Positions 35,886-57,722 of a stretch of DNA of 64,000 nt are shown here, one piece after another. The stretch is from Pseudobacteriovorax antillogorgiicola (lineage in GTDB: Bacteria; Bdellovibrionota_B; Oligoflexia; Oligoflexales; Oligoflexaceae), in contig NZ_FWZT01000005.1 in NCBI RefSeq assembly GCF_900177345.1, positions 186,001 to 250,000 of the forward strand, written 5' to 3'. Made by a program: the position numbers and the translations under genes. The notes beneath the pieces were generated by a model. That model was not told the origin of the DNA. It saw nothing but the letters and a program-made list of their open reading frames with translations, and did no database searches. Each line of letters begins with the position of its first letter. Position 1 is the first letter of the stretch.

Positions 35886-38405
35886 ATGAATCAAAGCCAG
35901 CTTCGAAGCTGCTGCTTTTTGCTATCATTTTTTTTAGCATCTGCAGTAGCAACAGGATCGACTTTACCCAAGCAATTCCATAAACGAGATCGAAAAACAC
36001 TCAAACTTTCCTTCAACCCCACTCTAAACAAGCCAAATAAAAAAAAACTGACTGGCCAGTTGTTAGTGGAACAGTACTTGAAGGACGAAGCAAAAAACCT
36101 TGATATCCCCAAGGATCTTTCGAATCTTCGTTTAACAAAAGTCAAACAAAGTCTTACCGGCTTTCACTTTCACTTCCAACAGATGCAAGACGAGATACCT
36201 GTTGCAAAGGGAGGTATTACTGTCTCAATAAATAAACAAAAGGATAGAGTCACACAAATCTACAACAACACCTTTCCCACAAAAATTGCAAAGGCAAGGC
36301 TAAGAAGCATAATTTCCGATGAACAGGCCTATGACATTGCGTGGCAAGCTCTCAAGGTTCATGGTCAACTCATCGAACTCCCGCGAATTGAAACCATTTT
36401 TGTATGGAATCAGAATCAGCTTGAGAGACAAATAAAGGTAACCCTAACGGTAACCGCTCCATATGGTTCATGGAACGTATTTATCAACCCCTTTGATAGC
36501 AAAGTCATTTCATTTCAGGATAATCGCCTTACACGCAAGCCCAAGCAAGCTTTCAATCCAACTTTCTATCAGGGTCCGATCACTGATCGGGTGCGAGAAT
36601 TCAAAAGAATTCAAGCTTTGGAAAAGGCAAATAAACACCTAGATCGTCAGATTCTAGCAGTAGCTGACATTCCCACTAAGGTTTTTGACCCAGACCCCAG
36701 AACGACGCTAAACAATCCAGACTTAGAAGATGACTCCGATACTAGCATGTTTGATGGAGCTTACTTTGACCGGATCTTACGGGATGTGAGTTTTGATGGA
36801 AATAAATATAGCCTCAAAGGGCCCTACGTTCAAATTATCGACTACGACCCACCGACTGCAGAGCCGCACCAGACGGAGACCCCCTCATGGAACTTTAAGC
36901 GCGGCGAAAATCCGTTTAATGAGGCTATGACTTACTTTCACATCGATCAATCCCAGAGATACATTCAGTCTTTGGGCTTTAAAGGTGAAACTGGAATTCA
37001 AGAGCTTTCCGTGGAGGTCGATGCAAACGGAGCCAATGGTGATGACAATTCCTACTTTCAGCCTTCTAGCAATCGCCTATCGTTCGGCCATGGTTGCGTC
37101 GATGACAACGAAGATGCCGACGTGATCCTTCACGAATATGGTCACGCGATTCAAGCCTCGATCAATAGCGATTGGATTGGTGGAGACACAGGAGCCATGG
37201 GTGAGGGCTTTGGCGACTACTGGGCTGCTTCTTACAGCATCTCGGTAAACGAAGGCCGAGACTACTTTCCAAACCAAATTTTTACTTGGGATGGCCATGG
37301 TAATCAAAACTCATGCTGGAACGGACGAATCATGAATGCCTTGGCGGCACGTTACGATCATCAAAGAAACTATGGAGCCCATGCTACTATTGATGGAGGG
37401 TTTCAATCTGACGAGCTTTGGTCAACCCCATTATTCCAGTCACTTCTTGAATTAGTAGATCTTGGGATTCCAAGGGAGGATGTTGATAAAATTGTTCTCC
37501 AATCACATTTCGGCCTTGGAGCCGATCTTAAGATGAGGGATATGGCCCTAGCAACACTCAACGCTGCGGATAACCTTTTTCCCAATGGCCCACACCGAGA
37601 TGTCTTATACAAGCACTTTATTCGACACGAGATACTTGAGGTCCCCGCTCCCGATATTATCCTAGGTTCTGTCGCTTTAAAAGAACCCACCAATGGCTTC
37701 TTCGATCCTGGTGACACTCTAGATCTTGAATTCAACCTTATAAATCAGGGTGATCTGGAGGCCAATAATATTGAAATCTTGATTGATAGCCCTAACTCAA
37801 ATGTCTCTATTCAACACGAAGCCATAGCTTTATCGACTCTAAGCCCGGGAAGTCAAGTACCTATTACAGTACCGGTAAAAGTTGAGCTTGCTGCGGCTAT
37901 GGTTTGTGGCACCTCATTTAGGATTAACTTCAATATCAGCCATGACGGAGATATCCCAGTTCCACCTCAAGCCAAAGACTATATGGTAGGACAGCCCATC
38001 GGAGTCAACTACACCAATAGTGAAGCTATAGAGATTCCTGATAACGACCCTAACGGTGCGATCAGTACAATTACTATATCCGAGGAAGGATTCTTGACAA
38101 CTAGCAACCTTAAAGTTCGCGTCCAGATCGCTCATACCTACTCGGGAGATCTACAACTGACTCTAACCAATCCCTCTGGGGATCAAGTGATCATCCAGGA
38201 TCGTGTTGGGAGTAGCAGCGATGATATTAGAGGTACCTTTCCTGATACCCTAACCTTATCCAACCCGTGGGATCTTTTCTATGGCCAAGCTCTTCAAGGT
38301 TCTTGGACACTTAAAGTCGAGGATCAAGCACAACAGGATGTCGGTACAATTGAGTCATGGGGCTTGGAAGACATCGTACGTTATGAGTGCCAATCAAACC
38401 AATGA
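35886..38405 (+). CDS. Secreted M36-like (fungalysin) metalloprotease with P domain
   Basis: 839 residues with a signal peptide. An FTP-type propeptide (about 35-220) leads to a zinc protease with VILHEYGHAIQ (HExxH, near 415) and the downstream Glu ligand in GAMGEGFGDYWAASY, a gluzincin arrangement of the fungalysin type. A middle region (about 600-700) has an NEW3/CARDB-like beta fold, and the C-terminus is a proprotein-convertase P domain (about 720-835: HTYSGDLQLTLTNPSG, then GQALQGSWTLKVEDQA). Likely an extracellular degradative protease, matured by propeptide removal. AGGAGA precedes the ATG. Its end overlaps the convergent glycosyltransferase by 12 bases. Confidence 0.88.
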   Translation: MNQSQLRSCCFLLSFFLASAVATGSTLPKQFHKRDRKTLKLSFNPTLNKPNKKKLTGQLLVEQYLKDEAKNLDIPKDLSNLRLTKVKQSLTGFHFHFQQMQDEIPVAKGGITVSINKQKDRVTQIYNNTFPTKIAKARLRSIISDEQAYDIAWQALKVHGQLIELPRIETIFVWNQNQLERQIKVTLTVTAPYGSWNVFINPFDSKVISFQDNRLTRKPKQAFNPTFYQGPITDRVREFKRIQALEKANKHLDRQILAVADIPTKVFDPDPRTTLNNPDLEDDSDTSMFDGAYFDRILRDVSFDGNKYSLKGPYVQIIDYDPPTAEPHQTETPSWNFKRGENPFNEAMTYFHIDQSQRYIQSLGFKGETGIQELSVEVDANGANGDDNSYFQPSSNRLSFGHGCVDDNEDADVILHEYGHAIQASINSDWIGGDTGAMGEGFGDYWAASYSISVNEGRDYFPNQIFTWDGHGNQNSCWNGRIMNALAARYDHQRNYGAHATIDGGFQSDELWSTPLFQSLLELVDLGIPREDVDKIVLQSHFGLGADLKMRDMALATLNAADNLFPNGPHRDVLYKHFIRHEILEVPAPDIILGSVALKEPTNGFFDPGDTLDLEFNLINQGDLEANNIEILIDSPNSNVSIQHEAIALSTLSPGSQVPITVPVKVELAAAMVCGTSFRINFNISHDGDIPVPPQAKDYMVGQPIGVNYTNSEAIEIPDNDPNGAISTITISEEGFLTTSNLKVRVQIAHTYSGDLQLTLTNPSGDQVIIQDRVGSSSDDIRGTFPDTLTLSNPWDLFYGQALQGSWTLKVEDQAQQDVGTIESWGLEDIVRYECQSNQ

Positions 38406-39560
38406 CGTAATTACAGGAAGAGCTCGTTCTTTTACTATGCCATCCATTAGGATGGCTGAACCCAATCTGTCACGGAGTTCTTGTCCAGATGTAAAAAGCG
38501 ATCTTTGATCATGACGCCAAGTGCTAACAGCATCCAAAATATCACGACCGCTTCGATAGATCTTTAAACCGGGATGACTGATTCCTGGCAAGCCCCGAAC
38601 TCCAAATGGAGTTGAAAGCAGAGGTTTGCCAGCGGCTAAAGCCTGAAACACCTTGATGTTGCTCCCAGAGCCCCGGTTGACAGGATTCACAACAACATCA
38701 GCAGCCGCTAGGTAGGTTTCAAGTGAGTCCACAAAGCCGTGACCTTCAACAAAATCATCCTGAAAGGGATGACTCACACTACCAACCACCTTGAGTTTTA
38801 CATTCCATTCTAAACAGAGCCTTCGGTAAGACTCTAATTGGCTTTTTAGTTCGTTAAGCCCGTCAATATTCGGCCCAAAGCGACTACCAACGAAGAGAAG
38901 AACAAATTCATTTTCTTCGACCTCCAGCTCCGAACGAGCCTTTTGGTAATCTGACCAAGTTAAATCAAGCCGAGCCATGCCGTTGGGAATTTCAGTAACC
39001 TCTCCACCTACAAACCTATAGTAGTCCCGATCGCTGGGTGCACAGGCAAAGATGTGGTCGAATCCGCGCGCAGCCCTTAACTCTGCCCCTTCGACCACTG
39101 GCCGTAGCACTCTGCGCTCTAGGATATGACCTTGCTTCAATAGGTCTGCTTCAATATTGTGACTCAGCATTATCTTTGGCAAGTGGGCTGGAAATCTGCT
39201 CAGATTATAGAAGGGAAAGTCAAAGACGAGAATATCAGCCCATTGAAGGCATTCCTCAACAACTGAACTGGTGGGCCAGGGAAGCTGCGTCCAAAGCCGC
39301 GAAGCTCCTAAGCAGTTCATGACAAATTGTAATCCACCCGAGATAAAGTTCAAGTCAACCCATTCTTCGACTTGATCTTCTTGCCTAGGAATCTTCACAA
39401 TACCCTGCCGACCATAGTCGGCACGACGTCCAGCCATCGATAAGATTCGTGAATCAACTCCAGCTTTTACAAGAGATCGAGCAAACTGTAAAGTTCTTTG
39501 ATGACCGCCTGTCAGGGCAGGTTGCACCCTTGAGGCCGTAATAATTAATACGCGAGTCAT
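38394..39560 (-). CDS. GT4-type glycosyltransferase
   Basis: 388 residues, two Rossmann domains of the GT-B fold. Visible are an N-terminal GGHQRTLQFARSL block, LLFVGSRFGPNIDGLNEL at the start of the second domain and RGSGSNIKVFQALAAGKPLLSTPFG for nucleotide-sugar binding. It starts at an ATG that shares one base with the stop of the upstream lipoprotein gene (TAATG), so translation is probably coupled. Acceptor and donor unknown; the polysaccharide context fits exopolysaccharide or capsule assembly. Confidence 0.85.
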   Translation of the reverse strand: MTRVLIITASRVQPALTGGHQRTLQFARSLVKAGVDSRILSMAGRRADYGRQGIVKIPRQEDQVEEWVDLNFISGGLQFVMNCLGASRLWTQLPWPTSSVVEECLQWADILVFDFPFYNLSRFPAHLPKIMLSHNIEADLLKQGHILERRVLRPVVEGAELRAARGFDHIFACAPSDRDYYRFVGGEVTEIPNGMARLDLTWSDYQKARSELEVEENEFVLLFVGSRFGPNIDGLNELKSQLESYRRLCLEWNVKLKVVGSVSHPFQDDFVEGHGFVDSLETYLAAADVVVNPVNRGSGSNIKVFQALAAGKPLLSTPFGVRGLPGISHPGLKIYRSGRDILDAVSTWRHDQRSLFTSGQELRDRLGSAILMDGIVKERALPVITSLV

Positions 39561-41288: not shown

Positions 41289-42092
41289 GTGAGAGGTGCA
41301 GCTTTGAAATGCTACCTTGGAATTTGCTTGGCGTTTGGCTTCTTAGGGTGCAGTGGCTCCCTAGTTCGCGACTCTTGTATTAGTGATGCTCCGGGGATGC
41401 AAGACACGTTGATTACCGGCCAGCAATTGGCAGCCAATGAAGTGGTTTTCACAGTGATGGGTCCCGTTAACGATACTGCATTAGCCATATCCGATGTACT
41501 TGTCAGTGAAGGTATTGAAGGAGCGTTTTTTGTTTCAGGAGAGTCTATCCTAGACAGACCCTCATCAATCCTAGCTACCATCTTTAATCAGGGTCATCGA
41601 ATCGCTAATGGTAGCTACAGTGACCAATCTCTCTTATCTTCTAAGTCCCCGATTGTTGAAGTAAGACAGACCGACTATCTCATCACGCCCTTCACACGCA
41701 ACAATATATACTTGTTCCGCCCACCCAATTTAGAATTCGACCAAAGGCTGGCTTCACAGCTCAATCAAGCAGGCTTAGTTAAGTATGTTGGCCCTATTGG
41801 AAATGACCATGCCACGCAATCGGATATTGACTGCTGGTCAAACGACTTAGATTCTTCCAGTTGCGCCGATGAAATTTTTAACACTGTTGCAAGTCAAGAT
41901 CGGGGCATATTACAAATCCATTCGAGTGACAACCGAGCCCTTGCCTTAAGCCAAAGCTTGGTGACTCTATTTAAAGACAGTGGCTACAGTTTTGTAAGTA
42001 TCGATCAAGTCCCAGATATTTCATCAGCCCTCCAAGCCAATGGGGCCACCGTTGGAGATACCGAAGTGACCAATTGTAATGATTATGATTAA
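41289..42092 (+). CDS. NodB-fold lipoprotein lacking deacetylase catalytic residues
   Basis: 267 residues from a GTG; a TTG at 41304 with GAGAGG upstream would start directly at the signal peptide and is equally likely. Lipobox FLGC. The fold follows NodB polysaccharide deacetylases: VVFTVMGPVNDTALAISDVLVSEGIEGAFFVSGES corresponds to the TFDDGP...ATFFV region, RIANGSYSD to the NHTYSH region and LFRPPNLEF to FRPPYG. The catalytic Asp pair (here MG) and both metal His residues (here GSYSD) are lost. It is probably an inactive, binding-type deacetylase homologue. Confidence 0.7.
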   Translation: MRGAALKCYLGICLAFGFLGCSGSLVRDSCISDAPGMQDTLITGQQLAANEVVFTVMGPVNDTALAISDVLVSEGIEGAFFVSGESILDRPSSILATIFNQGHRIANGSYSDQSLLSSKSPIVEVRQTDYLITPFTRNNIYLFRPPNLEFDQRLASQLNQAGLVKYVGPIGNDHATQSDIDCWSNDLDSSSCADEIFNTVASQDRGILQIHSSDNRALALSQSLVTLFKDSGYSFVSIDQVPDISSALQANGATVGDTEVTNCNDYD

Positions 42093-42107: not shown

Positions 42108-43598
42108 TTAGCTCCACATCTGCTTGATATTTCTCCCATACTGCAATCCAATTCCTATAGTCACGGTTCCAGCTAGGAAGGCAAACAGCAAAAGACGAAC
42201 ATACCATTGGGGTTCCAAGAACCAAATTCCGGTCGAGACAAGAACGATGGTCATGAGACTGAACGCCGTTATAATACTGACATTCCTGCTCATTATTTGT
42301 ATTGGTGTAATACGTAACATCGCCAAAAACACCATAAGTTCCGCAATGATTGTAGTGAGCGTTGCCCCAATACCAGCTCCACCCTCACCAAACTCACCAA
42401 GAAAGTAGGGTATCAATAGGAAGTTTAACCCTGTGTTCGCCATGAGGCTGACGAAAGTTATGAGGGTTAATTTCCTTCCATCACTAATCAGCCCTAGATT
42501 CGCTGAAAGAAATACATTGATATATGTAAATAGTAGAACTGGAGCTAGCAACTGCACGTGGATGGTTGCAGGCTCAAATTCTGCGCCATACAGCAGTTCG
42601 ACAAACTCCTGTCCCAATAGAATCATTGCCATCGCCATCAGCCAAGAGACCAACATGAGTACCCGATATACTAGGTAAAAAAATTCAAAATAGGCATTCT
42701 CACCTGCCGCCCGACTTTTTGAAAGCATCGGAATCACGGCTGAATAGAGCAAAGGAACACCCATAAGAAACAGGCCTTTCAATCTTTGCGCAGACCCATA
42801 CCAGCCTATCTCTGTTTCATCTGATAAAATCTCCAAGACCGCAATATCAATCTGACCGTATAAAGAGACCAGAGCCTGGTTCAGCAAAAAGGGCAGCCCA
42901 AAAATAGCTGCTGCCTTGCAAACTTGCCAATCAAACGACAATCGCAACCAACCTAATTGGAGAGCCCGAACCAGTAGTATTGTAAGAGTTATGATTTGAG
43001 AAAAGAGGAAGAAGCCTGCTGCCCACAAAACATCAGGGAAGAGCCAAACACCAACACACACAAGAAGAGCCTGTACAACTTTGGCAAAAACATCTAATCG
43101 GCTCACAAAGTTCACGTAATCTGCAGCCAAAAACATCGGTTTCACGACTTCTTGTGTGTGTTGACGAAGCCATTCAAACAGGCCAAAGACTACCACAATC
43201 AAAAATTTATCTTCTAAACCTTGCCATGTTCCATAGCTGAATAAGCCTAGCCAGAGGAGTCCACCTGTAAGAAATGTCATAAAACTCAAGCTCGGAAAAA
43301 TAGTTACAATTTTTCCAGGGTCTTGTGGGATGGTTCGGTTAATATAGGCATGAACTCCGAGTGGAGTGAGCGTAAATATAATACCAGCAATACTTTCAGC
43401 AAAATAGAGCACCCCAACTCCTTCCACACCAAGGATACGGGGAAGAAGCGCTCTCACAAGTGCCCCCAAACACATGGTTAAACCCAAAGAAACACCTAGC
43501 TTCACAAGATTTTTTGCTGTTTTATTATAGAGATTTGCCATGATACCAGGAGCCGTGATTGCTGACGATTGTTCCGACTCGATTGGCAGGAAGACCAA
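42108..43598 (-). CDS. Wzx-like polysaccharide flippase (MOP superfamily)
   Basis: 496 residues with about 12 to 14 membrane helices and the MOP/PST layout: GLTMCLGALVRALLPRILGVEGVGVLYFAES near the N-terminus and LLYSAVIPMLSKSR in the middle. It would flip lipid-linked oligosaccharide across the inner membrane. The listed start is a TTG; an ATG at 43541 (MANLYNKT) is the better biological start but neither has a strong ribosome binding site. Confidence 0.85.
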   Translation of the reverse strand: MVFLPIESEQSSAITAPGIMANLYNKTAKNLVKLGVSLGLTMCLGALVRALLPRILGVEGVGVLYFAESIAGIIFTLTPLGVHAYINRTIPQDPGKIVTIFPSLSFMTFLTGGLLWLGLFSYGTWQGLEDKFLIVVVFGLFEWLRQHTQEVVKPMFLAADYVNFVSRLDVFAKVVQALLVCVGVWLFPDVLWAAGFFLFSQIITLTILLVRALQLGWLRLSFDWQVCKAAAIFGLPFLLNQALVSLYGQIDIAVLEILSDETEIGWYGSAQRLKGLFLMGVPLLYSAVIPMLSKSRAAGENAYFEFFYLVYRVLMLVSWLMAMAMILLGQEFVELLYGAEFEPATIHVQLLAPVLLFTYINVFLSANLGLISDGRKLTLITFVSLMANTGLNFLLIPYFLGEFGEGGAGIGATLTTIIAELMVFLAMLRITPIQIMSRNVSIITAFSLMTIVLVSTGIWFLEPQWYVRLLLFAFLAGTVTIGIGLQYGRNIKQMWS

Positions 43599-43674: not shown

Positions 43675-45228
43675 ATGACTGTGAAATCGATCCATGGGAT
43701 ATGTTTAGCTATCGTATGGCTGTGTCGACTCCCGACAGCACTGTCGCAGCCTGAGAACTGCACGAAGGCCAAACTAAACAAAGCTATCTACCTCGTTCAA
43801 ACCCTTCAATCTGAATCGATCCCGCTGATTGAAGCATTGGCTGTTTGCCCCTCCATAAGCGTCCGCGAGCAAGCGGTATTCTGGGGCGCCTTCTACTATG
43901 CTCTAACCAAACAAGAATCCAAAACTGTGGGATTGATTGAATCGGCTTTTCCCTACAAGGCGGCAAAGACCTCACAACAACATATCTATTATCAAGCACG
44001 TCGTGGCCAGTGGCGACCCCTGAAAAGTAAGATTGAATCTGGCGACCCCTTGTATCTAGATAATCTAAACGCTCGCTTGATCCTAGCGCACAGCTTGATG
44101 TATAGCCATCGATTCGAAGATGCTATGTCCACTTTTGAGGAATACTTAAAAATAAAGCCTGATGATGACTTCATTGACGCTGAGTATCTTTTTGCGTTGA
44201 TCTGGGCTAAAAAATACGAGCTTGCTCAAGCGAGGGTCGATCGTTTAAAAACCTTCCCTCTTGGGACCTATTTGAAAAAATCTGCCGATCACGGGGAAGA
44301 CTTGTTAAAAGCTCTGCAAGGGCCCGTGAGAGACCAAGAAACGGGACAAGTTTTGTTCGGTCAGATCATAAGTTCTATCGAGCAACTTAACTTTTCCAAA
44401 GGGTCTGAGCGCCGCAGCTTGGGACTCCACTATCAAGATAAAATCAGCGGAGGCATTCAGCTTCACCAGATTGAAAGTCACTTGGATAAGCAATCCTATG
44501 ATGCAGTATCATTTAGTGGTAAGGGCGAATTAGGCGGTGAATATGGTAATATCCGGGGATCTTTATCTTATCTCAGCGCTAATGATGGCGTTATCATGGG
44601 ATTCCTAGGAGCCAGCCTAAAACTCGGCTATTGGAATTTTTCCGCTAGCATCTCACAAGATGCACTGACCCTCCTCCACCCCCTCCCTGAAGCAATTGCA
44701 GATCTTACCCGACAAACATTGACAACGTCCATCGGCAATAGCGATTGGCTGAGCTATAAATTACAACTCGCCCGGGACGATGGCCTTTCCCCTTTCGAAC
44801 GCCACCAACTCAGCTTTGCGATTCCAGTTTTTTATCGTAGCGAGTCGCATCTCTTGGCGCTAATCGTGCCTCTTGAATTTCGCTCACAACCGAAAGCGAG
44901 TCCTTACTATAGAAGCCATCCGAGAGACGGCAGTATTCTGGCCGGGGTGCGATACCGAGCTCCAATCGACTCCATGAGTCAGGCATCGGCATCGGTAGCC
45001 CTTGGGGTTCGCTATAAAAGCTCCTATCAAGAAGAAGCCAGTTACCAAACTCTTGTCGCTAGTGATATTGAGCTAGCCCTTGAGCGACGGCTATCCAAAC
45101 GTTGGCAGGTTCTAGGTAAGCTTAGCTTCGATAACACCAGCCAGGAAGAATTTGCGACCCGAGCAGAGAACCTTCTAGCTATAAGTATTGGTCTCGCCTA
45201 CGGCGTTCAAGAGGCCAACGCCCCCTAG
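43675..45228 (+). CDS. Exported TPR-containing protein with C-terminal barrel-like domain
   Basis: 517 residues, signal peptide to about residue 25 (a GTG two codons downstream is an alternative start). Residues about 30-230 are helical with TPR-like repeats (ALAVCPSISVREQAVFWG, MYSHRFEDAMSTFEEYLKIKPDD). From about 245 the sequence is alternating hydrophobic beta strands with aromatic ends, likely an outer-membrane barrel. This two-part plan resembles YaiO-type proteins. It adjoins the Wza-like lipoprotein, suggesting a role in polysaccharide export, retention or modification. Family uncertain. Confidence 0.65.
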   Translation: MTVKSIHGICLAIVWLCRLPTALSQPENCTKAKLNKAIYLVQTLQSESIPLIEALAVCPSISVREQAVFWGAFYYALTKQESKTVGLIESAFPYKAAKTSQQHIYYQARRGQWRPLKSKIESGDPLYLDNLNARLILAHSLMYSHRFEDAMSTFEEYLKIKPDDDFIDAEYLFALIWAKKYELAQARVDRLKTFPLGTYLKKSADHGEDLLKALQGPVRDQETGQVLFGQIISSIEQLNFSKGSERRSLGLHYQDKISGGIQLHQIESHLDKQSYDAVSFSGKGELGGEYGNIRGSLSYLSANDGVIMGFLGASLKLGYWNFSASISQDALTLLHPLPEAIADLTRQTLTTSIGNSDWLSYKLQLARDDGLSPFERHQLSFAIPVFYRSESHLLALIVPLEFRSQPKASPYYRSHPRDGSILAGVRYRAPIDSMSQASASVALGVRYKSSYQEEASYQTLVASDIELALERRLSKRWQVLGKLSFDNTSQEEFATRAENLLAISIGLAYGVQEANAP

Positions 45229-45328: not shown

Positions 45329-45931
45329 ATGATTTATGGGACTAAACTAGGCTTCCTGATTTGGATTATACTAATCTCAAGCTGTAGCCATTACATCGAC
45401 GCTGAACCCTTAAAGAACATCCAGTCGGGAAGGACCTTTGACCGGCAAGGTACCTATCGGATCAGTCCCGGCGATCAAGTTAACGTTCTAGTTTATGGCG
45501 AGGATAAGCTATCAGGAGTTTTCACCATTTCTTCAACCGGCTTCCTGTCTGTACCTCTCATACCGCCCCTGCAAGTTTCAGGACTCACTACCCAGCAGCT
45601 AAACAGAAAGCTTGGCAATGCTCTGAGAAGTTTAATCAAAAGTCCACGAGTTTCCACATCATTGACAGGGGCTAAGAACTTTCAGGTCTACTTTACAGGG
45701 GAGGTCAATACTGTGGGCGCTGTCAACCTCACCAACGAAACAACTCTTCTGCAAGCCATCTCCTTGGCAGGTGGCCTAAATGAATTTGCCTCCGGTCGGA
45801 TTGTTCTTGTTCGTAAAATCGCAAGCAAGCAAGTGAAGCGCTATGCTACCAGCTACGAGGACATTCTGAGTGGCTCGCTTCAATTGGACCACCTGAGTCT
45901 CGAAGCCGGTGACGTAATCATTGCCGAATGA
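45329..45931 (+). CDS. Wza/OPX-type polysaccharide export lipoprotein
   Basis: 200 residues, lipobox-like ISSC. An OPX/PES domain (about 40-125; TYRISPGDQVNVLVYGED, GFLSVPLIPPLQVSGLTTQQL) is followed by one SLBB-like domain (about 130-190; YFTGEVNTVGAVNL, LLQAISLAGGLNEFA). It is shorter than Wza (about 380), which has further SLBB and barrel-helix parts, so the outer-membrane channel may be supplied by another protein. It exports exopolysaccharide with the nearby flippase and glycosyltransferase. Confidence 0.9.
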   Translation: MIYGTKLGFLIWIILISSCSHYIDAEPLKNIQSGRTFDRQGTYRISPGDQVNVLVYGEDKLSGVFTISSTGFLSVPLIPPLQVSGLTTQQLNRKLGNALRSLIKSPRVSTSLTGAKNFQVYFTGEVNTVGAVNLTNETTLLQAISLAGGLNEFASGRIVLVRKIASKQVKRYATSYEDILSGSLQLDHLSLEAGDVIIAE

Positions 45932-46000: not shown

Positions 46001-46029
46001 CCTCCTTTGGATACGTAAGAGGAGTTTTC

Positions 46030-47857: not shown

Positions 47858-47864
47858 ATGTTGA
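47796..47864 (+). CDS. Possible 22-residue leader peptide
   Basis: An ATG at 47796 opens a 22-codon frame (MGFAKNRKDRFEFVWIYRTWKC, aromatic-rich) whose TGA (47862-47864) overlaps an ATG at 47864 that could start the NRPS. The AAGGA directly touches the ATG, which is too close for efficient initiation, so this may be chance. If real it would couple translation into the operon. Confidence 0.2.
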   Translation: MGFAKNRKDRFEFVWIYRTWKC

Positions 47865-50800
47865 TGGATTTTGAAGACTGGAAACCAGTAGAGTTTGAGA
47901 TTGAAGGCTTACATCCCTTAGATTCGTTTCGCCCCTCAACCGACGTTGAGCAAGAGGTTTGGATATCTGAGGCATTAAGCCAATCGGGTGCTGCCGTCTT
48001 CAATGAGATGCTCGCCATTGAAACAAGTCAGGTCCTCGACAGGGCAATCATCGCGTCAACCCTGGACTACCTTAGTCAGAAGCATCACTGCCTACGCACA
48101 GTATTTAGCCCCGATGGACAATGGGCTTGCATTCTTCAGTCAATGCCGTTGAAGCTGGCCAATATCTCTTGTGACAACCGTAGTGATGTTTTAGCCCACC
48201 TAGAGCAGGATGCTTCACAAGCATTTGATGTAGTGAATGGTCCCCTTGTGTCTTGGACTCTCGCTACGTGTGGCGTTACAAGTATCATTTGCCTGAAAGC
48301 CCATCATATCATCTGCGATGGGTTATCCATGAGCCGCATCATGGCAGATTTTGTTTCGATCTATGAGTGTCTTCTATCAGGTCAAGACTTGAATCTTCAA
48401 GTTCTTAGCACAACGTCTAGTGAAGAGGACTCCAAGAATTTTTGGCTTACGAAAGTGCAAGGGGTCCGAGAAACCTTGCGTTTGCCCTATAGCAAAAGCC
48501 CTCAGTATAAGGTCAGCGAATCTGCCAAACAAGTTGACTACCTAATTCCTCAAGATCAGAGCAATATCATCCTCGATCAAGCCCGTAAGCTGAAATGCAG
48601 CCCCACGGCTCTGTTTGTTGCCACAACCCAATGGGTTCTCGGTCTGATCGCCAAGCAAGATGTATTCGCACTAGGAGTCCCCGCGGTGCGAAGTGGAACG
48701 GGTGGAGATCCCGAACCTACTGGTCACCACACAAGTATGGTTCCGATTCCTGTACTTTTGTCAAAAAATACTAGCTTCCTGTCTCTCGTTCAGGAAGCCC
48801 AATCTCATTTGCTTGATGCCGCCGAACAAGGTGGTACGACTCTTGGCGCCATCCTACGGGAACACAATATTGAGCGTGAAGAGGGTCGCTTACCGCTAGT
48901 CAACTTCGTGATAAACGTTGATCCACGCATCCCGGTAACCATTCAGGGAGAGCCTTGTAACTTTATCACGATTCCCAAGGCATTTCAGGCTTTCGAGTGT
49001 TTCCTCAATATTGTCATCGAAGACGCCGGCATTACCCTAGAATGCAACTTCCAACAAGATCTTTTCGATTCCACAACGATCGAGGGTCTCATTAAAGAAG
49101 TCTCGAAATCAGCCCTTGATTTAAGTCAAAATGCAGAGCAGACTTGGCCCGAACAGCAATTGAATGAAGGGCGAGATACCCTTGGGTATTGGAAAAAAAG
49201 GCTTACTCCTCTTCCTGAGCCGATCGACATCGTCCCAGACTGGCCACGGCATCGCTCAGCAGAACAAAGCTATGAGTCACTTGATAAGGATATAGGTTCA
49301 CAATTAAAGAGTCTACTAGGTCGGTGGCATTGCCGGTCTCATCTACCAGAAAAGTTTGCATGGATCAGTGCCTACGCAAGACTACTTTCAGCCTACAGCC
49401 GCCAAGATGAATTTCTCTTGGGAGTCGAGAATGACGATCGAACCTGGGTTCCCTTGAGGATAAAAACTTATCGGAATCAGACTTTTGAAGAATTGAGCAC
49501 GTCTATCTTCAAGGAGTATGAAAGTAATTACGAATATAAGATATCTTCCACTACCGAACTTACTGACCATTTGGCTACAAACCAAGTTGCCGATCAAAAC
49601 TCTCTTTGGAGTGCAGCGTTCAGAACTTCTGCTGACAGCGATGGGATTCTACAGTGCGACCTAGAATTGACTTTAGTCAAAGATCGTATTCTACTCAGAT
49701 ATCGCTCTGATATGTATGGTCGATCAACTGCGACGGCTCTTTTAGAAGCACTCGAAACCCTAATGATAGAGTCCCTTAAAGATGAGCACCATACCCTTAC
49801 GTTTTCTTTAGGGAAGATCGAAAAGAATCTACTGAAGGAGTCACCAGACTCCTTATTGCTCGATAAGTTCAAATCTATGGTGCAATCGCAACCTGATCAC
49901 ACAGCTATGGTTTGGCAGGATTCTATACTTACTTATCGCGAACTAGACCTTAAAATCACAGGGCGAGCCTACGAGTTATCTAGATTAGGAATCAGTTGCG
50001 GGTCCCTAATCGGTATTCATCTTGAGCGCTCCGATGAGATGGTCATCACCCTATTTGCTGTTCTCAGTTTAGGAGCAGGCTATGTCCCCCTCGATCCTCT
50101 TTACCCTCGGGATCGACTTGAGTACATGACTCATCAAGGGAAGCTTGCGTGGGTGATCAGCGACAACACGGAATTGTGGGACATTCCCTTCGAAGGGCAA
50201 CTGATCAACATCAGCAGCCTATCAAAAGGCAAGCCCGAAGCTTCCGTCATTAGCTTGCCTAAACCTGATCAAACTGCTTATGTTATCTATACTTCTGGTT
50301 CCACCGGAAAACCCAAAGGGGTGGAAATCCAACACCGCGCCCTAGCCCAATTTATTGAAGGAATGCAGGATCGAGTTCCCATCGGTATCAATGACAGAGT
50401 ACTTGGGATTACAACCATATCCTTTGATATTTCGATACTGGAAATATTTATGACTCTCGCTCAAGGGGCAACGCTGGTCCTTGGCCCAGGCTCTCTAGCC
50501 ACAGACCCCGAAGCCTTACAAGCTTTGCTAATCAAGCATGATATTAGTATCCTTCAAGCTACTCCAGCAACATGGACCATGCTCCTGAATCATGGTTGGC
50601 AGGGTAAAAGCAATCTAAGAGCGATTTCTGGCGGTGAGGCCCTTAGGGACGATTTAGCTAAATTGCTAGTCTCTTGCACCCAAGAACTTTGGAATGTCTA
50701 TGGGCCCACTGAGGCTACAGTCTGGGCGACAGCATCCAAGATCACCAAGGGTATTGACGTCGATATAGGTACTGCGTTAGATGGTTATCAAATAGCAATA

Positions 50801-51595
50801 CTCGATGACAACTTAAACCCATGCCCCCGGGGTATGGCTGGGACCCTTTGGATTAGTGGCCCCGCGTTGGCAAAAGGTTATCTATATCGTCCTGATTTAA
50901 CAGCGGAACGTTTTCAGGTAGTGCCATCTATAGGATCTCGGGCATACAATACCGGTGATCTTTGCCGTATCAATAATGACGGCAAAATCCAATATCTTAG
51001 AAGGGTCGATACTCAGGTAAAAATCCGAGGCTTCCGTATCGAGCTAGGCGAGATCGAATCTCTTCTGGCTCAAGAGTCGGGAGTCAAAGAAGCTGCCGTC
51101 ATTGTGCGAGAAGACCAGCCAGGAGATCAACGACTGACAGCGTATATAACACTCAAAGCAGAAAATTCTAAATCAGGCAGTCAGTACTTTATCGATTACT
51201 TAAATCAACATCTGCCACGGTACATGATACCTAATTCAATCGAGATTCTGGAGCACTTCCCGTTGACAGATAGTGGCAAGATCGACCGAAAGTCTCTTCC
51301 TCGACCAAAACCACTTATACCACATGCTGATCAAAGTCCTTCGGACCTATCACCGATGGAGGCTCATATTGCTAGTCTTTGGCAAAAGTTGATCGGCTTT
51401 CCTGCTCCACTTCAAAAGACTGATAGTTTTTTTACTCTAGGTGGACACTCACTGCTTGCGATTCAGTTCATGAGTCACGTCAAAGAGCATTTCAATTACG
51501 AGATCAAGCTTCGCGACTTGCTCACGGCAAACCTTGGACAGATAGCTCATGCGATAGAGACGATTGCTGGCCAAAAACCCAGGAGGTCACGCTGA
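47858..51595 (+). CDS. Non-ribosomal peptide synthetase: C - half-C - A - PCP
   Basis: 1245 residues (an ATG at 47864 is an alternative start). C domain about 1-420 with an intact HHIICDG (149-155). A second C-like segment (about 435-655; begins YWKKRL) matches only the C-terminal half of a C domain and has no HHxxxDG. The A domain (about 665-1145) has YVIYTSGSTGKPKG (near 808), NVYGPTEAT (near 946), YNTGDL and DSGKIDRKSLP. The eight-plus-two pocket reads D-I-L-Q-I-G-V-V-W-K, close to the published glycine code DILQLGLIWK. The PCP has LGGHSLLAIQ with Ser near 1197. No epimerase, thioesterase or reductase. First gene of an overlapping operon. Confidence 0.93.
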   Translation: MLMDFEDWKPVEFEIEGLHPLDSFRPSTDVEQEVWISEALSQSGAAVFNEMLAIETSQVLDRAIIASTLDYLSQKHHCLRTVFSPDGQWACILQSMPLKLANISCDNRSDVLAHLEQDASQAFDVVNGPLVSWTLATCGVTSIICLKAHHIICDGLSMSRIMADFVSIYECLLSGQDLNLQVLSTTSSEEDSKNFWLTKVQGVRETLRLPYSKSPQYKVSESAKQVDYLIPQDQSNIILDQARKLKCSPTALFVATTQWVLGLIAKQDVFALGVPAVRSGTGGDPEPTGHHTSMVPIPVLLSKNTSFLSLVQEAQSHLLDAAEQGGTTLGAILREHNIEREEGRLPLVNFVINVDPRIPVTIQGEPCNFITIPKAFQAFECFLNIVIEDAGITLECNFQQDLFDSTTIEGLIKEVSKSALDLSQNAEQTWPEQQLNEGRDTLGYWKKRLTPLPEPIDIVPDWPRHRSAEQSYESLDKDIGSQLKSLLGRWHCRSHLPEKFAWISAYARLLSAYSRQDEFLLGVENDDRTWVPLRIKTYRNQTFEELSTSIFKEYESNYEYKISSTTELTDHLATNQVADQNSLWSAAFRTSADSDGILQCDLELTLVKDRILLRYRSDMYGRSTATALLEALETLMIESLKDEHHTLTFSLGKIEKNLLKESPDSLLLDKFKSMVQSQPDHTAMVWQDSILTYRELDLKITGRAYELSRLGISCGSLIGIHLERSDEMVITLFAVLSLGAGYVPLDPLYPRDRLEYMTHQGKLAWVISDNTELWDIPFEGQLINISSLSKGKPEASVISLPKPDQTAYVIYTSGSTGKPKGVEIQHRALAQFIEGMQDRVPIGINDRVLGITTISFDISILEIFMTLAQGATLVLGPGSLATDPEALQALLIKHDISILQATPATWTMLLNHGWQGKSNLRAISGGEALRDDLAKLLVSCTQELWNVYGPTEATVWATASKITKGIDVDIGTALDGYQIAILDDNLNPCPRGMAGTLWISGPALAKGYLYRPDLTAERFQVVPSIGSRAYNTGDLCRINNDGKIQYLRRVDTQVKIRGFRIELGEIESLLAQESGVKEAAVIVREDQPGDQRLTAYITLKAENSKSGSQYFIDYLNQHLPRYMIPNSIEILEHFPLTDSGKIDRKSLPRPKPLIPHADQSPSDLSPMEAHIASLWQKLIGFPAPLQKTDSFFTLGGHSLLAIQFMSHVKEHFNYEIKLRDLLTANLGQIAHAIETIAGQKPRRSR

Positions 51596-52332
51596 TGCAA
51601 CGCTTGCAAATGGAATATCTGGACTGTAACACACAGTCTCTTTTCACAATTATTGAAAAGCCAGCAACTAAGGCTAAAGGCATGATCCTACTTGTTAATC
51701 CCGCGCCCCATGAGCAGAACCGAGTCGCTTTTTTCTATCGGCAAATGTCTCTGTACATGAGTCGCTTGGGGTGGCTTGTTTGCCGTTTTGATTTTTCTGG
51801 TACTGGGGATAGTAGTGGCTCCCTTGAGACTCGCAGCTGGACCGACTGGTCACAGGAACTCTCAGAAATATTGCGCTATATCAATGATCGCTACCAGCCA
51901 GAGAATTTACAGGTTTTCGGCTGCCGGCTAGGGGCTAATCTAGTTCTTGCCTTAAATCACATGGAGAGCAACATTGATCAGGTGATTGCCATTGATCCAC
52001 TTCCTAGTAGCGAGCAGTATCTGAAAGAGCTTCAGGACATTCAATCGGCAATGCTAAGCCATCCCTTTGATGCTCCATTTGGTTCATCTCTCTCACATGA
52101 CTTTTTTGGCTTTCGATATTCAGACTCCCTATTGCGTGAAATTGAAACCCACTCGCCGGACAACAGGGATCTAAAGCCAATCATATGTCATAGCTATGGT
52201 GAAGGCTTACCCAGCTCCATGCCCCTCGACGAAGAGTTCCTTTGGACATCCTATGGTCATCTCAAGCTCCAGTTCCTAGCACAGACAATTCTAGCTAAAG
52301 CTGCAAAGTGGATAGAAGGAGGTCGATCATGA
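51595..52332 (+). CDS. Alpha/beta hydrolase resembling exosortase A-associated hydrolase 2
   Basis: 245 residues, alpha/beta-hydrolase fold. The start TGATG overlaps the NRPS stop by one base with AGGAGGT upstream. At the nucleophile elbow (GxSxG) it reads VFGCRLGANLVL, so the catalytic Ser is Arg. This G-x-R-L-G form is what I recall of the XrtA-associated hydrolase 2 family (TIGR03101), which sits in polysaccharide loci that carry exosortase. C-terminal SYGHLKLQF has a possible catalytic His. It may act as a non-classical release or editing partner for the NRPS. Family name from motif memory, not a search. Confidence 0.75.
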   Translation: MQRLQMEYLDCNTQSLFTIIEKPATKAKGMILLVNPAPHEQNRVAFFYRQMSLYMSRLGWLVCRFDFSGTGDSSGSLETRSWTDWSQELSEILRYINDRYQPENLQVFGCRLGANLVLALNHMESNIDQVIAIDPLPSSEQYLKELQDIQSAMLSHPFDAPFGSSLSHDFFGFRYSDSLLREIETHSPDNRDLKPIICHSYGEGLPSSMPLDEEFLWTSYGHLKLQFLAQTILAKAAKWIEGGRS

Positions 52333-55300
52333 AGTTGAAGCCCATGACCTTCGGTAAATTTAATCACCTGGTCGGCGTGTTGAGTGAACCCGCGACGATA
52401 GACCCTCTTAAACCATTAGTTCTAACTTGGAATGCAGGAATGAGTAGCCGACTCGGACTGCATCAAATTAATAGAGAGATCGGCCATAGGCTCGCAAATC
52501 TCGGATATAGCAGTGCTCGGTTTGATCTGTCAGGGCAAGGGGATTCTGGCCCTCGACAAGACGGACTATTGGGGCAGGAACGATGCACAGCCGATATTCG
52601 TGAAACTATGGATCATTTAGAATCTCTTGGCTACCACTCATTTATTTTGGCAGGGAACTGTTCGAGTGCTGTAGATGCTCATCATGCAACGGTTGCCGAT
52701 AAAAGAGTTGTGGGCCTTGCCATGATCGATAGCTATTGCTACCCCACACAAAAGTTCAAAGCACTATACTACACCCAGCGCCTCAAAGATCCAAAACGCT
52801 GGGCGAAACTTTTGGCTGGTAAGAATCAGGGCTCATTATCAGCCGAAACAACTCCAGATAGTATTTTCGAAACAGAGTATCCGCCACAAGATCAAGTGCA
52901 TCAGGAGCTTCAGGGATTAGTTCGTCGCGGTGTCTCGTTATTTGTTTGCTATACCGGCGGCTTCCAGGATGTGTATAACTACGAAGACCAGTTTTTTCAC
53001 ATGTTTCCTGATCCAACAATCAAAGAGCACACCAAGCTCCAGTACCTGCCAAAGTCGGATCACATGCTAACCCTCCTTGATCACCGTCAAGCATACCTCG
53101 ATCAGCTTGTTCAATGGATTGAAGCTATGAATCGATCACCAGAGACCCTTCTCGATCTCGAATTGCGATGGCAACGGTCAAACTTAAACACAGAAGCACT
53201 TATCTTAGGAGATCAGTCCTATACCTATCGGCACTTGCTAACTATGAGCGAGCGAATTGCCACCTATCTTATGGAGAAAGGTATTAAGCCTGGGGATCGA
53301 GTAGGCATTCACCTCGAACGATCACCAGCTTGCATATTTGCTATTTTAGGAGTACTTAAAGCCGGAGCATGCTATGTTCCTCTAGATCCCAGTTACCCGA
53401 TAGAGCGGCTTCGCTATATGGCAGAGCAGGCCCAACTTAAGGGCCTTCTCTCAAGCTCTAAAGATAGTGATATCCCAGCTCCTAACTTCCCTATTGAAGA
53501 AGCACTTGCGACGCCTAGTCAGGATTTCCGTACTGTACCAGTCTCAAAGGGAGACCCTGCTTACATCATCTACACCTCTGGCTCCACAGGGAAGCCAAAA
53601 GGAGTCGTTTTGAGTCATAGTGCCTTAACCAAGCTCATCCTTTGGCAGAACAAGCAGTCAACCCAAAGTAGACGTACCTTGCAGTTTAGTCCGATCAGCT
53701 TTGATGTCTCTTTTCAGGAAATTTTTTCTACTTTCTCGTCGCTTGGCACCCTTGTATTGATCAATGAGAGGGATCGCGTCAACCCCAAGAAGCTTCTAGA
53801 AATCATCGACCAACATCAGGTCGATCGTCTATTTTTACCCTTCGTAGCTCTACAGATGATCTGTCACACTGCAAATCACGATCGCCACTGGCCCCAGAGT
53901 CTCAAAGAAGTTATTACAGCTGGAGAACAGCTCCAGATAAACGATAAGGTTAGGCGATTCTTCGAGCACCTAGCTGATGCAACTCTTACTAACCAATATG
54001 GGCCATCTGAATCGCATGTGGTAACAAGCTTGGAACTCAATGGAAACCCAGAACATTGGCCGCCACTGCCATCAATCGGATCGGAGGTTGATAGCGCAAA
54101 ATTATTCCTTGTTCAAAATGGTGAAGAGGTTGAAGCAGGTCATGAGGGTGAGATCTATATATCCGGTGATTGTCTCGCCAGCGGATACTGGAATCGACCA
54201 GATGCAACAGATGAAAAATTTATCTCCTGGCAAGGCCAACGCTGCTATCGTACGGGCGATCTAGGCAAGAGACTCAGTGACGGTACTATCGCCTTCTTAG
54301 GTCGCAACGATCATCAGGTCAAGATCCGAGGTCACCGAATCGAGCTTGGTGATGTCGAAGTCGCCTTGAGTCAAGAACCTAGGCTCGATGAAGTCGTGGT
54401 GGTAGCCAGTAAGATCCAAGATCAGCTAAGCCTGATCGCGTGCTTCACCAGCTCTGAAGAGATTTCTGAACAGGATCTTCGCGACCAGCTTCGCAAAACC
54501 TTACCAGAGTACATGGTGCCTAGCCGAATCAAGCGAATCCCAAAAATTCCTAAGACACCAAGTGGTAAAATCGATCGAAAAGTGATTCCTAAGCTTATAG
54601 AAGAAGCAAAACCTAAGCCCCCAGAGAACACTGAGCTTCAAAGCCTTATTGCCAAAATTCAAAAAGTTTGTTCGGATCTGATCGGTGAATCCATAAGTCC
54701 AGATGCTAGCTTCTTTGATCACGGCGGTAACTCCTTACTGGCGATTCAGGCTGCCGAGCGGCTCCAAGATCAGTACGGTGTTACGGTATCGCCCATGGAT
54801 ATTTTTGATCAACCAAGCCCCAGGGGGCTTGCCAAGCGACTCGAAGGGGAAATTTTGGTAAGCGATGGGTTGGTATCGCCTAGCCAACCTAGAGAGCCAA
54901 TCGCAATCATTGGCATGGCCTGTCGATTTCCTGGTGCAAATAATATCCATGAATTCTGGCACAAGCTCACTTCAGGGGCAGAGCTAGGGACGACTCTTAA
55001 TAGGGACGATTTACCCCAAGACCAACAGCAGCTCTTTGAATCCGAAGACTTTGTGCCCCGAAAAGGAATCGTGGATGGCGCAGATAACTTTGACCACGAG
55101 TACTTCAATTTAAGTGTTCGAGATGCAGAACTGATGGACCCTCAGCATCGGGTGCTAATGGAAGAATCGGTCCGAGCCATGTCGGATGCAAACCTCTTTA
55201 ACACATCGAAACGCAACGTGGGAGTCTTTGCCGGTTGTGCCCATAATACCTACTTTATTCATCAGGTTTTAAAGAGCAAGAAAACAATGGATCGAGTGGG

Positions 55301-57722
55301 CCATTTCCAAGCCATGTTAGCGAATGATAAGGACTACCTGGCTAGTCGCATAGCCTACCACCTCAATCTCAAGGGTCCCGCCATTAGTATCAACACAGCT
55401 TGCTCGACCTCTCTTGTAGCCTTAGGACAAGCGGTTGATTCTTTGCGAGCTGGGCGCTGTGAGGCAGCCCTGGTCGGTGGCTCCCACATCAGCATTCCCC
55501 TAGCATCCGGGTATGAGTACCAAGAAGGGGATATTCGCTCACCAGATGGCTTATGCCGGCCTTTCGATAAGAATGCTCAAGGCACCTACTTCAGCGATGG
55601 AGTTGCAGCGATTGTTATCATGCCTTTGAGCAAGGCTCTCAAAGAAGGACATCGCATTTACAGTGTGATTGAAGGCATCGGGCTGAACAATGATGGTGGC
55701 GACAAAGCTAGCTTCTCTAGCCCATCTATTCAAGGCCAAGTAGCTAGTATCAAACAGGCCCAAGCTGATGCTCGCCTTGGCAATCAGAGCATTGACTATA
55801 TTGAATGCCATGGCACCGCGACTTTGATAGGAGACCCTATCGAAATCAAGGCCCTCGCCGAGGCTTACCCAGCCGCTAACGGGGAGCAAATCGCCTTGGG
55901 TTCTGTAAAATCCAACTTTGGCCACTTAACGGCAGCTGCTGGACTTGCTGGTCTTATCAAGACGTCCTTGTCTTTGTTTTTTGAATACCGACCTCAAACG
56001 CTCCACTTCTCCGAGGGTAATCCCCATGTACCTTGGGATTCTGTGCCTTTTGTGGTTCAAAGCAAGGGCCAAGTATGGTCCCGTGGAGAAAAACGTCGTA
56101 GGGCTGCTATCAGCTCATTTGGCATCGGGGGAACCAATGCCCACGTGATCATTGCCGAGGGCCAGGTCGCTAACAGACATGAGAATCTCTCACTTCTCTG
56201 CTATATTGCAGATAGCCAATTGGATGAAGGAATCAAGCATTCTTGGTCATCTATCCCCATGTCTTCCGGTTACTTTAGCTTTGAGACTCCCTCAGCTGAA
56301 GGTAGGGGTTATAAAATCAAGCACAAAGACTTCGAGTTGGAGAGATTCATCTCTCCCAGTAGATCTCAGCACGTAAGCTTCTTGCTTCCGGGTCAAGGAT
56401 CTCAGGCTAGCTGTATGGGACAAAGCTTGGCGAAAGACTGGCCTCGCTTTGCAAAATACTTTCAAGACTGTCTGGAGCGATTTGACGAATTACTCCCACA
56501 ACCATTGAGCAAGGCGCTCGAAACTGAGCAAATCCATCAGACCCAGTTCACACAAGCTGCCATATTTAGCGTCAGCTACTCCCTTGGAAAGGCACTCTTG
56601 GATTTAGGGGTTCAACCGAATTTGATGATTGGGCACTCCATAGGCGAAATATCAGCTGCTGCACTCAGCCAGCACCTTAGCTTAGCTGACGCCACCAACC
56701 TTGTTGCTGCCCGAGGTCGATTGATGCAAGCCCTTCCTTCTGGTGGAATGCTAGCCGTTAGAGCCCCTTGGAGTCACGTTCAAAAATTGATACCAGAAAG
56801 CCTCGACCTTGCTGCTATCAATGGTACAGACTCGATCGTCGTTGCTGGGCCTCATGAAGACTTAGACCGTGCAGTATCAACTCTCGAAACGAACTCAATA
56901 AAAACTAGACTACTAAAGACATCACACGCATTTCACTCTCGCATGATGAACTCCATGCGAGTGAAATTCGAGTCCGCGATAAGGATCATTTCACTTAAAC
57001 CTGCTCTCATATCAGTGAAATCAACTCTCGATGGCCGAGATTGGCTGGAACAACAACCTGACTTGGATTATTGGCTTGATCATGTCACAGCTCCAGTGAA
57101 CTTTTATAACGGGGTGCAAGCCATCCCCAATGGGAGCCTAGTCATTGAGCTTGGAGCTGGCAGAGTAACAGCCAACCTCGCTAAGAAGTCAGCTACCCAT
57201 GACTTACAAGTGATCACAAGCATGGGTAACTATGCTGGAAGTGATCAAGAATCCACAGATATCTGGACCTTACTTGCTGAACTTTGGATTCATGGCCTGA
57301 TTGAAAAATCAACCCTAGAGACCGAACTAGGCACCACCAAGAAGGCACTGCCTTACCCATTCCAAAGCCGACGCTGCTGGATTGAAGCCGACGATCCGTC
57401 TGGACTCCAAGCAACAGCAATCACGAGCAGTTCCGAAAATCGGGGGTCTCACGGACCTTTGGCCCCCGGAAATCTAAATGAGATTTTAGCAGCTCAACTG
57501 GATCTCATGTCGGCTCAACTCAATCTACTTCGCTCTCAAGATCAAAGTGATTCTAATCCTCCAGGTGAAGAAACAGGGACCAATTCTCTGGGGCTAGAGA
57601 GCAGCGCTTCAAAGCCCTGGCTCGGTCGTTGCCCTGAGGGTTATCCTGCATACTTTCAGGAAAACCCTGAGAAACCTGGTCAGCTGCTCATGCAGCGCAT
57701 AAAACCCAAGACGACGATCTAA
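52329..57722 (+). CDS. Fused hydrolase - A - PCP - KS - AT hybrid NRPS/PKS
   Basis: 1797 residues; start at ATG 52329 (AGGAGGT; ATGA overlap with the hydrolase). Domains: alpha/beta hydrolase (about 1-275, elbow LAGNCSSA with Cys as nucleophile, final SDHMLTLL); A domain (about 285-755, YIIYTSGSTGKPKG near 412, NQYGPSES near 555, PSGKIDRK near 744) with pocket D-V-Q-F-I-A-Q-V-V-K, near the proline code; PCP (HGGNSLLAIQ, Ser near 800); KS (about 856-1290, NTACSTS with Cys near 1025, ECHGTATLIGDPIE, KSNFGHL); AT (about 1345-1640, GHSIGEIS near 1436, HAFH suggesting malonyl). The tail has a coiled QL..M..QL repeat and a conserved GYPAYFQENPEKPG. No C domain before A, no ACP and no thioesterase. 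Confidence 0.92.
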   Translation: MKLKPMTFGKFNHLVGVLSEPATIDPLKPLVLTWNAGMSSRLGLHQINREIGHRLANLGYSSARFDLSGQGDSGPRQDGLLGQERCTADIRETMDHLESLGYHSFILAGNCSSAVDAHHATVADKRVVGLAMIDSYCYPTQKFKALYYTQRLKDPKRWAKLLAGKNQGSLSAETTPDSIFETEYPPQDQVHQELQGLVRRGVSLFVCYTGGFQDVYNYEDQFFHMFPDPTIKEHTKLQYLPKSDHMLTLLDHRQAYLDQLVQWIEAMNRSPETLLDLELRWQRSNLNTEALILGDQSYTYRHLLTMSERIATYLMEKGIKPGDRVGIHLERSPACIFAILGVLKAGACYVPLDPSYPIERLRYMAEQAQLKGLLSSSKDSDIPAPNFPIEEALATPSQDFRTVPVSKGDPAYIIYTSGSTGKPKGVVLSHSALTKLILWQNKQSTQSRRTLQFSPISFDVSFQEIFSTFSSLGTLVLINERDRVNPKKLLEIIDQHQVDRLFLPFVALQMICHTANHDRHWPQSLKEVITAGEQLQINDKVRRFFEHLADATLTNQYGPSESHVVTSLELNGNPEHWPPLPSIGSEVDSAKLFLVQNGEEVEAGHEGEIYISGDCLASGYWNRPDATDEKFISWQGQRCYRTGDLGKRLSDGTIAFLGRNDHQVKIRGHRIELGDVEVALSQEPRLDEVVVVASKIQDQLSLIACFTSSEEISEQDLRDQLRKTLPEYMVPSRIKRIPKIPKTPSGKIDRKVIPKLIEEAKPKPPENTELQSLIAKIQKVCSDLIGESISPDASFFDHGGNSLLAIQAAERLQDQYGVTVSPMDIFDQPSPRGLAKRLEGEILVSDGLVSPSQPREPIAIIGMACRFPGANNIHEFWHKLTSGAELGTTLNRDDLPQDQQQLFESEDFVPRKGIVDGADNFDHEYFNLSVRDAELMDPQHRVLMEESVRAMSDANLFNTSKRNVGVFAGCAHNTYFIHQVLKSKKTMDRVGHFQAMLANDKDYLASRIAYHLNLKGPAISINTACSTSLVALGQAVDSLRAGRCEAALVGGSHISIPLASGYEYQEGDIRSPDGLCRPFDKNAQGTYFSDGVAAIVIMPLSKALKEGHRIYSVIEGIGLNNDGGDKASFSSPSIQGQVASIKQAQADARLGNQSIDYIECHGTATLIGDPIEIKALAEAYPAANGEQIALGSVKSNFGHLTAAAGLAGLIKTSLSLFFEYRPQTLHFSEGNPHVPWDSVPFVVQSKGQVWSRGEKRRRAAISSFGIGGTNAHVIIAEGQVANRHENLSLLCYIADSQLDEGIKHSWSSIPMSSGYFSFETPSAEGRGYKIKHKDFELERFISPSRSQHVSFLLPGQGSQASCMGQSLAKDWPRFAKYFQDCLERFDELLPQPLSKALETEQIHQTQFTQAAIFSVSYSLGKALLDLGVQPNLMIGHSIGEISAAALSQHLSLADATNLVAARGRLMQALPSGGMLAVRAPWSHVQKLIPESLDLAAINGTDSIVVAGPHEDLDRAVSTLETNSIKTRLLKTSHAFHSRMMNSMRVKFESAIRIISLKPALISVKSTLDGRDWLEQQPDLDYWLDHVTAPVNFYNGVQAIPNGSLVIELGAGRVTANLAKKSATHDLQVITSMGNYAGSDQESTDIWTLLAELWIHGLIEKSTLETELGTTKKALPYPFQSRRCWIEADDPSGLQATAITSSSENRGSHGPLAPGNLNEILAAQLDLMSAQLNLLRSQDQSDSNPPGEETGTNSLGLESSASKPWLGRCPEGYPAYFQENPEKPGQLLMQRIKPKTTI

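Follow-up and report, generated by a model that had tools for sequence, protein, structure and literature searches.

Paired cysteine and arginine hydrolases in NRPS and polysaccharide loci suggest a little-studied way to hand a peptide to an acceptor

Exosortase A (XrtA)-associated hydrolases 1 and 2 bear names that tie them to exopolysaccharide loci in which an AMP-forming ligase is encoded, and we know of no established function for either. A hydrolase that stands alone in an NRPS cluster is commonly a type II editing enzyme, and CmaE and SyrC act through a Cys nucleophile. Aminoacyl groups are shifted between carriers by the thioesterase-like enzymes CmaE, SyrC, and LgnA (PMC8748450). In the papers searched, no text contained 'exosortase A system-associated', nor exosortase together with NRPS and 'hydrolase 1'; neither hydrolase is mentioned in the 2006 PEP-CTERM paper.

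Here, we analyzed a 64,000-nucleotide stretch of the Pseudobacteriovorax antillogorgiicola genome (contig NZ_FWZT01000005.1), called the window below, in which three intact ORFs on the plus strand (47858-51595, 51595-52332, and 52308/52329-57722) form an operon with 9.9 kb of intact overlapping reading frames (Table 1). The stop of the NRPS gene and the start of the H2 gene share the A of TGATG, and the ATG with which protein 3 starts (52329) overlaps the stop of the H2 gene in ATGA. The initial annotation had noted both overlaps, had placed the elbows G-C-R-L-G in the free hydrolase (H2) and G-N-C-S-S in the hydrolase of protein 3 (H1), and had read the genes as C - half-C - A - PCP, hydrolase, and hydrolase - A - PCP - KS - AT; ORF coordinates, elbow residues, and Pfam matches (Condensation, AMP-binding, PP-binding in protein 1; AMP-binding, PP-binding, ketoacyl-synthase, acyltransferase in protein 3) bear this description out. 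The A domain of protein 1 has the code DILQIGVVWK, which we take to be Gly-like by way of the DILQLG-type code, as had been suggested. That of protein 3, suggested to be Pro-like, has DVQFIAQVVK, one residue different from DVQFVAQVVK, which is given as a Pro code (PMC9113097). With A-PCP and KS-AT modules and the active-site motifs of C, KS, AT, and H1 in place, the operon encodes a hybrid NRPS/PKS, its KS-AT having no ACP of its own. No match to the Pfam thioesterase PF00975 was obtained in the window proteins at E 0.1.

Table 1 Features of the NRPS/PKS operon and the adjoining exopolysaccharide genes in the window. H1 and H2, hydrolases of the Cys/Arg pair.
Feature	Coordinates	Strand	Assigned by
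Glycosyltransferase (exopolysaccharide locus)	38394..39560	-	
Polysaccharide deacetylase	41289..42092	+	
Wzx-type polysaccharide flippase (PF01943)	42108..43598	-	
Signal peptide-bearing TPR/probable outer-membrane barrel protein; kept beside Wza in DT_89	43675..45228	+	
Wza-type polysaccharide export protein (Poly_export, SLBB)	45329..45931	+	
Protein 1, NRPS: C (HHIICDG) - half C (C-terminal half only) - A (Gly-like) - PCP	47858..51595	+	
H2, free-standing alpha/beta-hydrolase-fold pseudoenzyme, elbow GCRLG (Arg at nucleophile position)	51595..52332	+	Best model TIGR03101
H1, N-terminal alpha/beta-hydrolase domain of protein 3, Cys111 nucleophile (GNCSS) and His245	52329..53150	+	Best model TIGR03100
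A domain of protein 3, code DVQFIAQVVK (Pro)	53162..54601	+	Pfam and pocket code
PCP of protein 3 (GGNSL)	54654..54842	+	
KS of protein 3; ACSTS, HGT, NFGH intact	54894..56177	+	
AT of protein 3 (GHSIG, HAFHS)	56379..57233	+	
C-terminal tail of protein 3: linker (AAQLDLMSAQLNLLR) and C-terminal motif; in relatives these flank ACP and class-III aminotransferase	57348..57722	+	

The window copy is reduced. Protein 1 lacks the first A-PCP and the N-terminal half of the second C domain, both of which relatives carry at the same place, so that the half-C domain is real; protein 3 lacks an ACP and a class-III aminotransferase (AMT), with both flanking linkers kept, when compared with L043, L045, L047, L048, and L050. 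The absence of the ACP after KS-AT and the loss of the aminotransferase had gone unmentioned. Either the window line receives an ACP in trans or it makes a simpler product, and without ACP and AMT the copy may be partly non-functional.

The hydrolase pair was compared in 56 pairs from Oligoflexales and Gamma-, Beta-, and Alphaproteobacteria, the relatives being drawn from 56-58 genomes of the same phylum, 369 gammaproteobacteria, GTDB contigs, and plasmids (an operon-wide DNA search of the plasmids gave no match). Cys stands at the H1 elbow in 56/56, with the catalytic His in all 52 readable H1s; Arg stands at the H2 elbow in 56/56, and H2 has no conserved catalytic His. Gene adjacency is obligate, H2 lying directly 5' of H1 in every pair unless both are fused in one protein. 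By its Cys elbow, Arg elbow, and H2-H1 adjacency, the window pair falls within the wider Cys/Arg pair family proposed here. AlphaFold models (pLDDT 82 for H2 and 86 for H1) predict both to be alpha/beta hydrolases. Their nearest solved folds are general lipases and esterases, the thioesterases DcsB and curacin TE ranking lower in the lists; apart from these two thioesterases, searches of the PDB by sequence and by fold returned nothing beyond general alpha/beta hydrolases, lipases, and esterases, and no pair of this kind with a solved structure.

The Cys-type and Arg-type elbows had been taken as marks of XrtA-associated hydrolases 1 and 2. This kinship stands insofar as TIGR03100 and TIGR03101 are the best NCBIfam models for H1 and H2, respectively, with no other model scoring close, and the Cys/Arg pattern of the 56 pairs extends to genuine XrtA members; it does not amount to membership of the curated families. 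H1 scored 53.7 bits against TIGR03100 (cut-off 168.45) and H2 61.4 bits against TIGR03101 (cut-off 202.75), and membership was rejected on these scores. As a control, the genuine gammaproteobacterial members L111 and L128 gave 335 and 355 bits with TIGR03100 and 243 and 280 bits with TIGR03101; because genuine members score 243-355 in the same test, the window H1 and H2 are relatives, not members, of these families. Also counting against the assignment, the H1 tree places the NRPS-linked H1s in a group of their own (81/57; 29-row core 100/96), separate from the XrtA-type group (100/96) and from a fused group (95/89); within them, the window H1 is sister to that of Pseudobacteriovorax sp. DT_89 (99/87). 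Within the XrtA-type group, the TIGR cut-offs were passed only by tested members with a GLCDA elbow, and one tested GLCGG member (L116) fails; GLCGG-type H1s in L116, L121, L125, and L127 make up a further subgroup beside the XrtA clade. The window A domains scored 205 and 209 bits against the acyl-CoA ligase model TIGR03098 (cut-off 592). That no exosortase lies in the window proved true of the whole 7.28-Mb genome (PF09721, 0 matches), and an exosortase-dependent function was rejected for this reason; exosortase is also absent from 14 of 18 genome entries with the pair, some genomes being entered twice.

The initial annotation knew of no described pathway with this set of domains, and the literature searched, which was that available outside subscription, yielded neither a description of the arrangement nor anything to contradict this; the set is, however, not unique to this genome but a recurrent arrangement. 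The layout NRPS - H2 - H1-(A)-PCP-KS-AT recurs in nine regions of Oligoflexales relatives, which include DT_89, Oligoflexus sp., and Oligoflexaceae contigs; in three loci (L044, L046, L051), H1-PCP-KS-AT has neither an A domain to load that PCP nor a C domain before it. Gammaproteobacterial NRPS or PKS-NRPS lines end in the pair: in Salinisphaera shabanensis, a co-linear A-PCP-KS-AT-ACP-AMT-C-A-PCP is followed by H2 and H1; L130 and L135 have C-A-PCP-H2 in one protein and then H1. H2 is fused C-terminal to A-PCP, at the thioesterase place, in L130 and L132-L135. PF00975 was not found in the line proteins of L067, L049, L130, and L135. The A domain before the NRPS-linked pair has a Gly-like code, mostly of the DILQ[LI]G type, in most lineages. 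In L129 and Dyella L068, the pair is present, and no NRPS was detected within the stretch read. Chance co-location of NRPS, H2, and H1 was rejected, as the set recurs in many genera of several proteobacterial classes. Two side observations concern other regions: contigs C6, C9, C22, and C48 of G000 (L059-L062) hold further ketosynthase genes, several of more than 1,200 codons, with no H1/H2 pair nearby; and the whole NRPS-polysaccharide region of Endozoicomonas sp. G2_2 (L071, NZ_JAGHQU010000002.1) stays close to that of Salinisphaera, both in its gene order and in the place of its H1 in the tree, so that its genus label may be wrong or the region transferred.

Exopolysaccharide genes, also unmentioned before, adjoin the operon upstream (38.4-47.1 kb). 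In DT_89, homologues of all five neighbours listed in Table 1 precede the NRPS, joined by Wzy, a probable Wzz, and another glycosyltransferase. Between Wza and the NRPS operon lies a gene for a probable lipoprotein with CxxCH and no Pfam match (45991-47076), with no counterpart in the DT_89 stretches compared. A shared region limited to the polysaccharide-NRPS block was considered for the window and DT_89 and dropped, as their synteny begins about 30 kb further upstream; because it runs so far, the two count as one polysaccharide-linked case, in which the proximity may simply be inherited. Polysaccharide genes occur independently beside the pair in Salinisphaera and its relatives (Wzx, BBP2, sugar transferase, glycosyltransferases), Dyella silvae (Wza, Wzz, flippase), G110 (Wzy, glycosyltransferase, UDP-glucose dehydrogenase), G116 (flippase), and Variovorax paradoxus VAI-C, in which a head-to-tail series on one strand encodes NRPS, PPTase, H2, H1, Wza, a tyrosine autokinase, a sugar transferase, and glycosyltransferases. 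In the Dyella silvae locus L068 (about 9.2-10.8 kb), NRPS-type H2 and H1 sit among Wza, Wzz, BBP2, flippase, and GNAT genes, with no NRPS within about 10 kb of the pair; the genome carries no exosortase. In 20 arbitrary 20-kb stretches of the same genomes, the polysaccharide query genes were absent throughout, a comparison that is not fully even because Pfam was applied to the pair neighbourhoods as well. Polysaccharide genes are missing from the surroundings of about half of the NRPS-H2-H1 loci (L045, L047, L049, L051, L130, L132, L135, L136); a saccharide acceptor therefore cannot be general, and an exopolysaccharide role for every NRPS-linked pair was rejected.

The operons of fused H2-H1 proteins also encode an amino acid:[carrier protein] ligase, a carrier protein or PPTase, an acyl-CoA dehydrogenase-like protein, DUF1839, and GH2, and may give a function to orphan ligases of this kind. 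Such operons lie at 3303-10954 of L170 (Azospirillum oryzae NZ_CP054620) and 2841-13070 of L055; the Oligoflexales fused-pair loci have Wzx and a glycosyltransferase nearby.

Judging from domain content and gene context, we consider it about evenly poised that H1, as the catalytic partner, and H2, as a pseudoenzyme, make up a split thioesterase/acyltransferase by which a glycyl-terminated chain is offloaded, perhaps to a saccharide. What leads us to propose an acyl- or peptidyl-carrier transferase, with one partner dead, is that all three settings of the pair hold a carrier-bound (amino)acyl thioester and that most A domains preceding the NRPS-linked pair are of the DILQ[LI]G type. In the reduced hybrid line of the window, this two-part enzyme would replace the usual thioesterase. 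Pro would be loaded on H1-A-PCP-KS-AT and extended with malonyl, an ACP supplied in trans being assumed, and the Pro-malonyl chain would pass to C-A(Gly)-PCP. Cys111 of H1, with His245, would then take the Gly-ending chain from the last PCP, while the catalytically dead H2 would pair with H1 and bind or position the carrier protein. H1 would finally hand the acyl group to an acceptor, for which a (poly)saccharide is the leading candidate in the window lineage because glycosyltransferase, deacetylase, flippase, and export genes adjoin. Physical pairing, acyl transfer, the glycine substrate, the saccharide acceptor, and the order of synthesis are all what we infer from sequence.

Release by transfer, whose best hints are the terminal position, the H2 fusions, and the polysaccharide operons, and to which the ligase operons of the fused pair add another aminoacyl-carrier system, is favoured, at roughly even confidence, over three other readings; the likelihoods attached to the four overlap and need not sum to one. 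Cys-type hydrolases can also merely hydrolyse, and H1/H2 might be a type II thioesterase-like editing unit that clears stalled or wrong acyl groups from carriers, the product leaving otherwise. The alpha/beta-hydrolase fold of H1, with DcsB among its PDB fold matches, and the common editing role of stand-alone hydrolases in NRPS clusters speak for this; we nevertheless hold it rather unlikely, given that the lines examined yielded no other release domain, that several of them carry H2 as a C-terminal fusion where a thioesterase would sit, that the Cys/dead-partner pairing is invariant, and that PF00975 is not matched.

That the pair shuttles aminoacyl or peptidyl groups between carriers within the line, and not out of it, finds its best hint in L044, L046, and L051, where transfer onto the PCP is needed because no A domain loads it and no C domain precedes it; the window H1, too, occupies the place of a C domain, and CmaE, SyrC, and LgnA offer precedents (PMC8748450). 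Yet in gammaproteobacterial lines the pair comes after the final PCP, beyond which the operon encodes no carrier, and fused pairs occur in operons with only one carrier protein, which leaves shuttling unlikely. Finally, the deletions relative to L045 and L047 (first A-PCP, half C, ACP, and aminotransferase) could mean that the window copy is a decaying remnant that makes nothing; we regard this as quite improbable, since the overlapping frames are intact, the active sites of KS, AT, C, and H1 keep their motifs, and the deletions are in frame and near domain edges.

Beyond release by transfer at this locus, we tentatively entertain, as a rather doubtful extension, that a Cys hydrolase with an Arg pseudoenzyme is a general two-part glycyl/peptidyl transferase on carrier proteins, common to XrtA, ligase, and NRPS/PKS loci, which in exopolysaccharide-linked lineages attaches an assembly-line peptide to a surface polysaccharide; if so, there would be a peptide-decorated polysaccharide made by an NRPS. 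The occurrence of the pair in NRPS and polysaccharide loci suggests a little-studied way to pass a peptide on to an acceptor, which might be a sugar polymer. As the invariant pair stands beside assembly lines with readable substrate codes and carrier proteins, a glycyl-terminated thioester can be put forward as a concrete substrate guess, and the role of XrtA-associated hydrolases becomes testable in vitro through the NRPS-linked pair. Were the acceptor a saccharide, this would be a route to NRPS-decorated exopolysaccharides; were it not, it would still be an alternative release mechanism missed by annotation with PF00975.

Compared with known systems, the proposed H1 resembles the aminoacyltransferases CmaE and SyrC and the type II thioesterase LgnA in being thioesterase-like; those enzymes transfer aminoacyl groups between carriers, which H1 might also do, and it shares with CmaE and SyrC a Cys nucleophile in an alpha/beta-hydrolase fold, as judged from sequence and predicted structure; to our knowledge, none of the three has an Arg pseudoenzyme partner. 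With the type I thioesterase of NRPS/PKS (PF00975), H1/H2 share the end-of-line place and the alpha/beta-hydrolase fold, but they are two proteins instead of one domain and do not match that family. The fused H2-H1 proteins of Azospirillum oryzae (NZ_CP054620) and Oligoflexales (L053-L055) have, like the window pair, two domains with Cys and Arg elbows next to a carrier protein onto which an amino acid is loaded; they differ in being one polypeptide, in having no NRPS, in their separate clade, and in their acyl-CoA dehydrogenase-like, DUF1839, and GH2 partners. XrtA-associated hydrolases 1 and 2 share with the window pair the gene order, the Cys in hydrolase 1, and the Arg in hydrolase 2, whereas the window pair scores far under the curated cut-offs, lies in a separate group of the H1 tree, has no exosortase in its genome, has a GxCS[GSA] elbow in H1 instead of the GLCDA of XrtA hydrolase 1, and stands beside full NRPS A domains and KS-AT where XrtA loci have a ligase.
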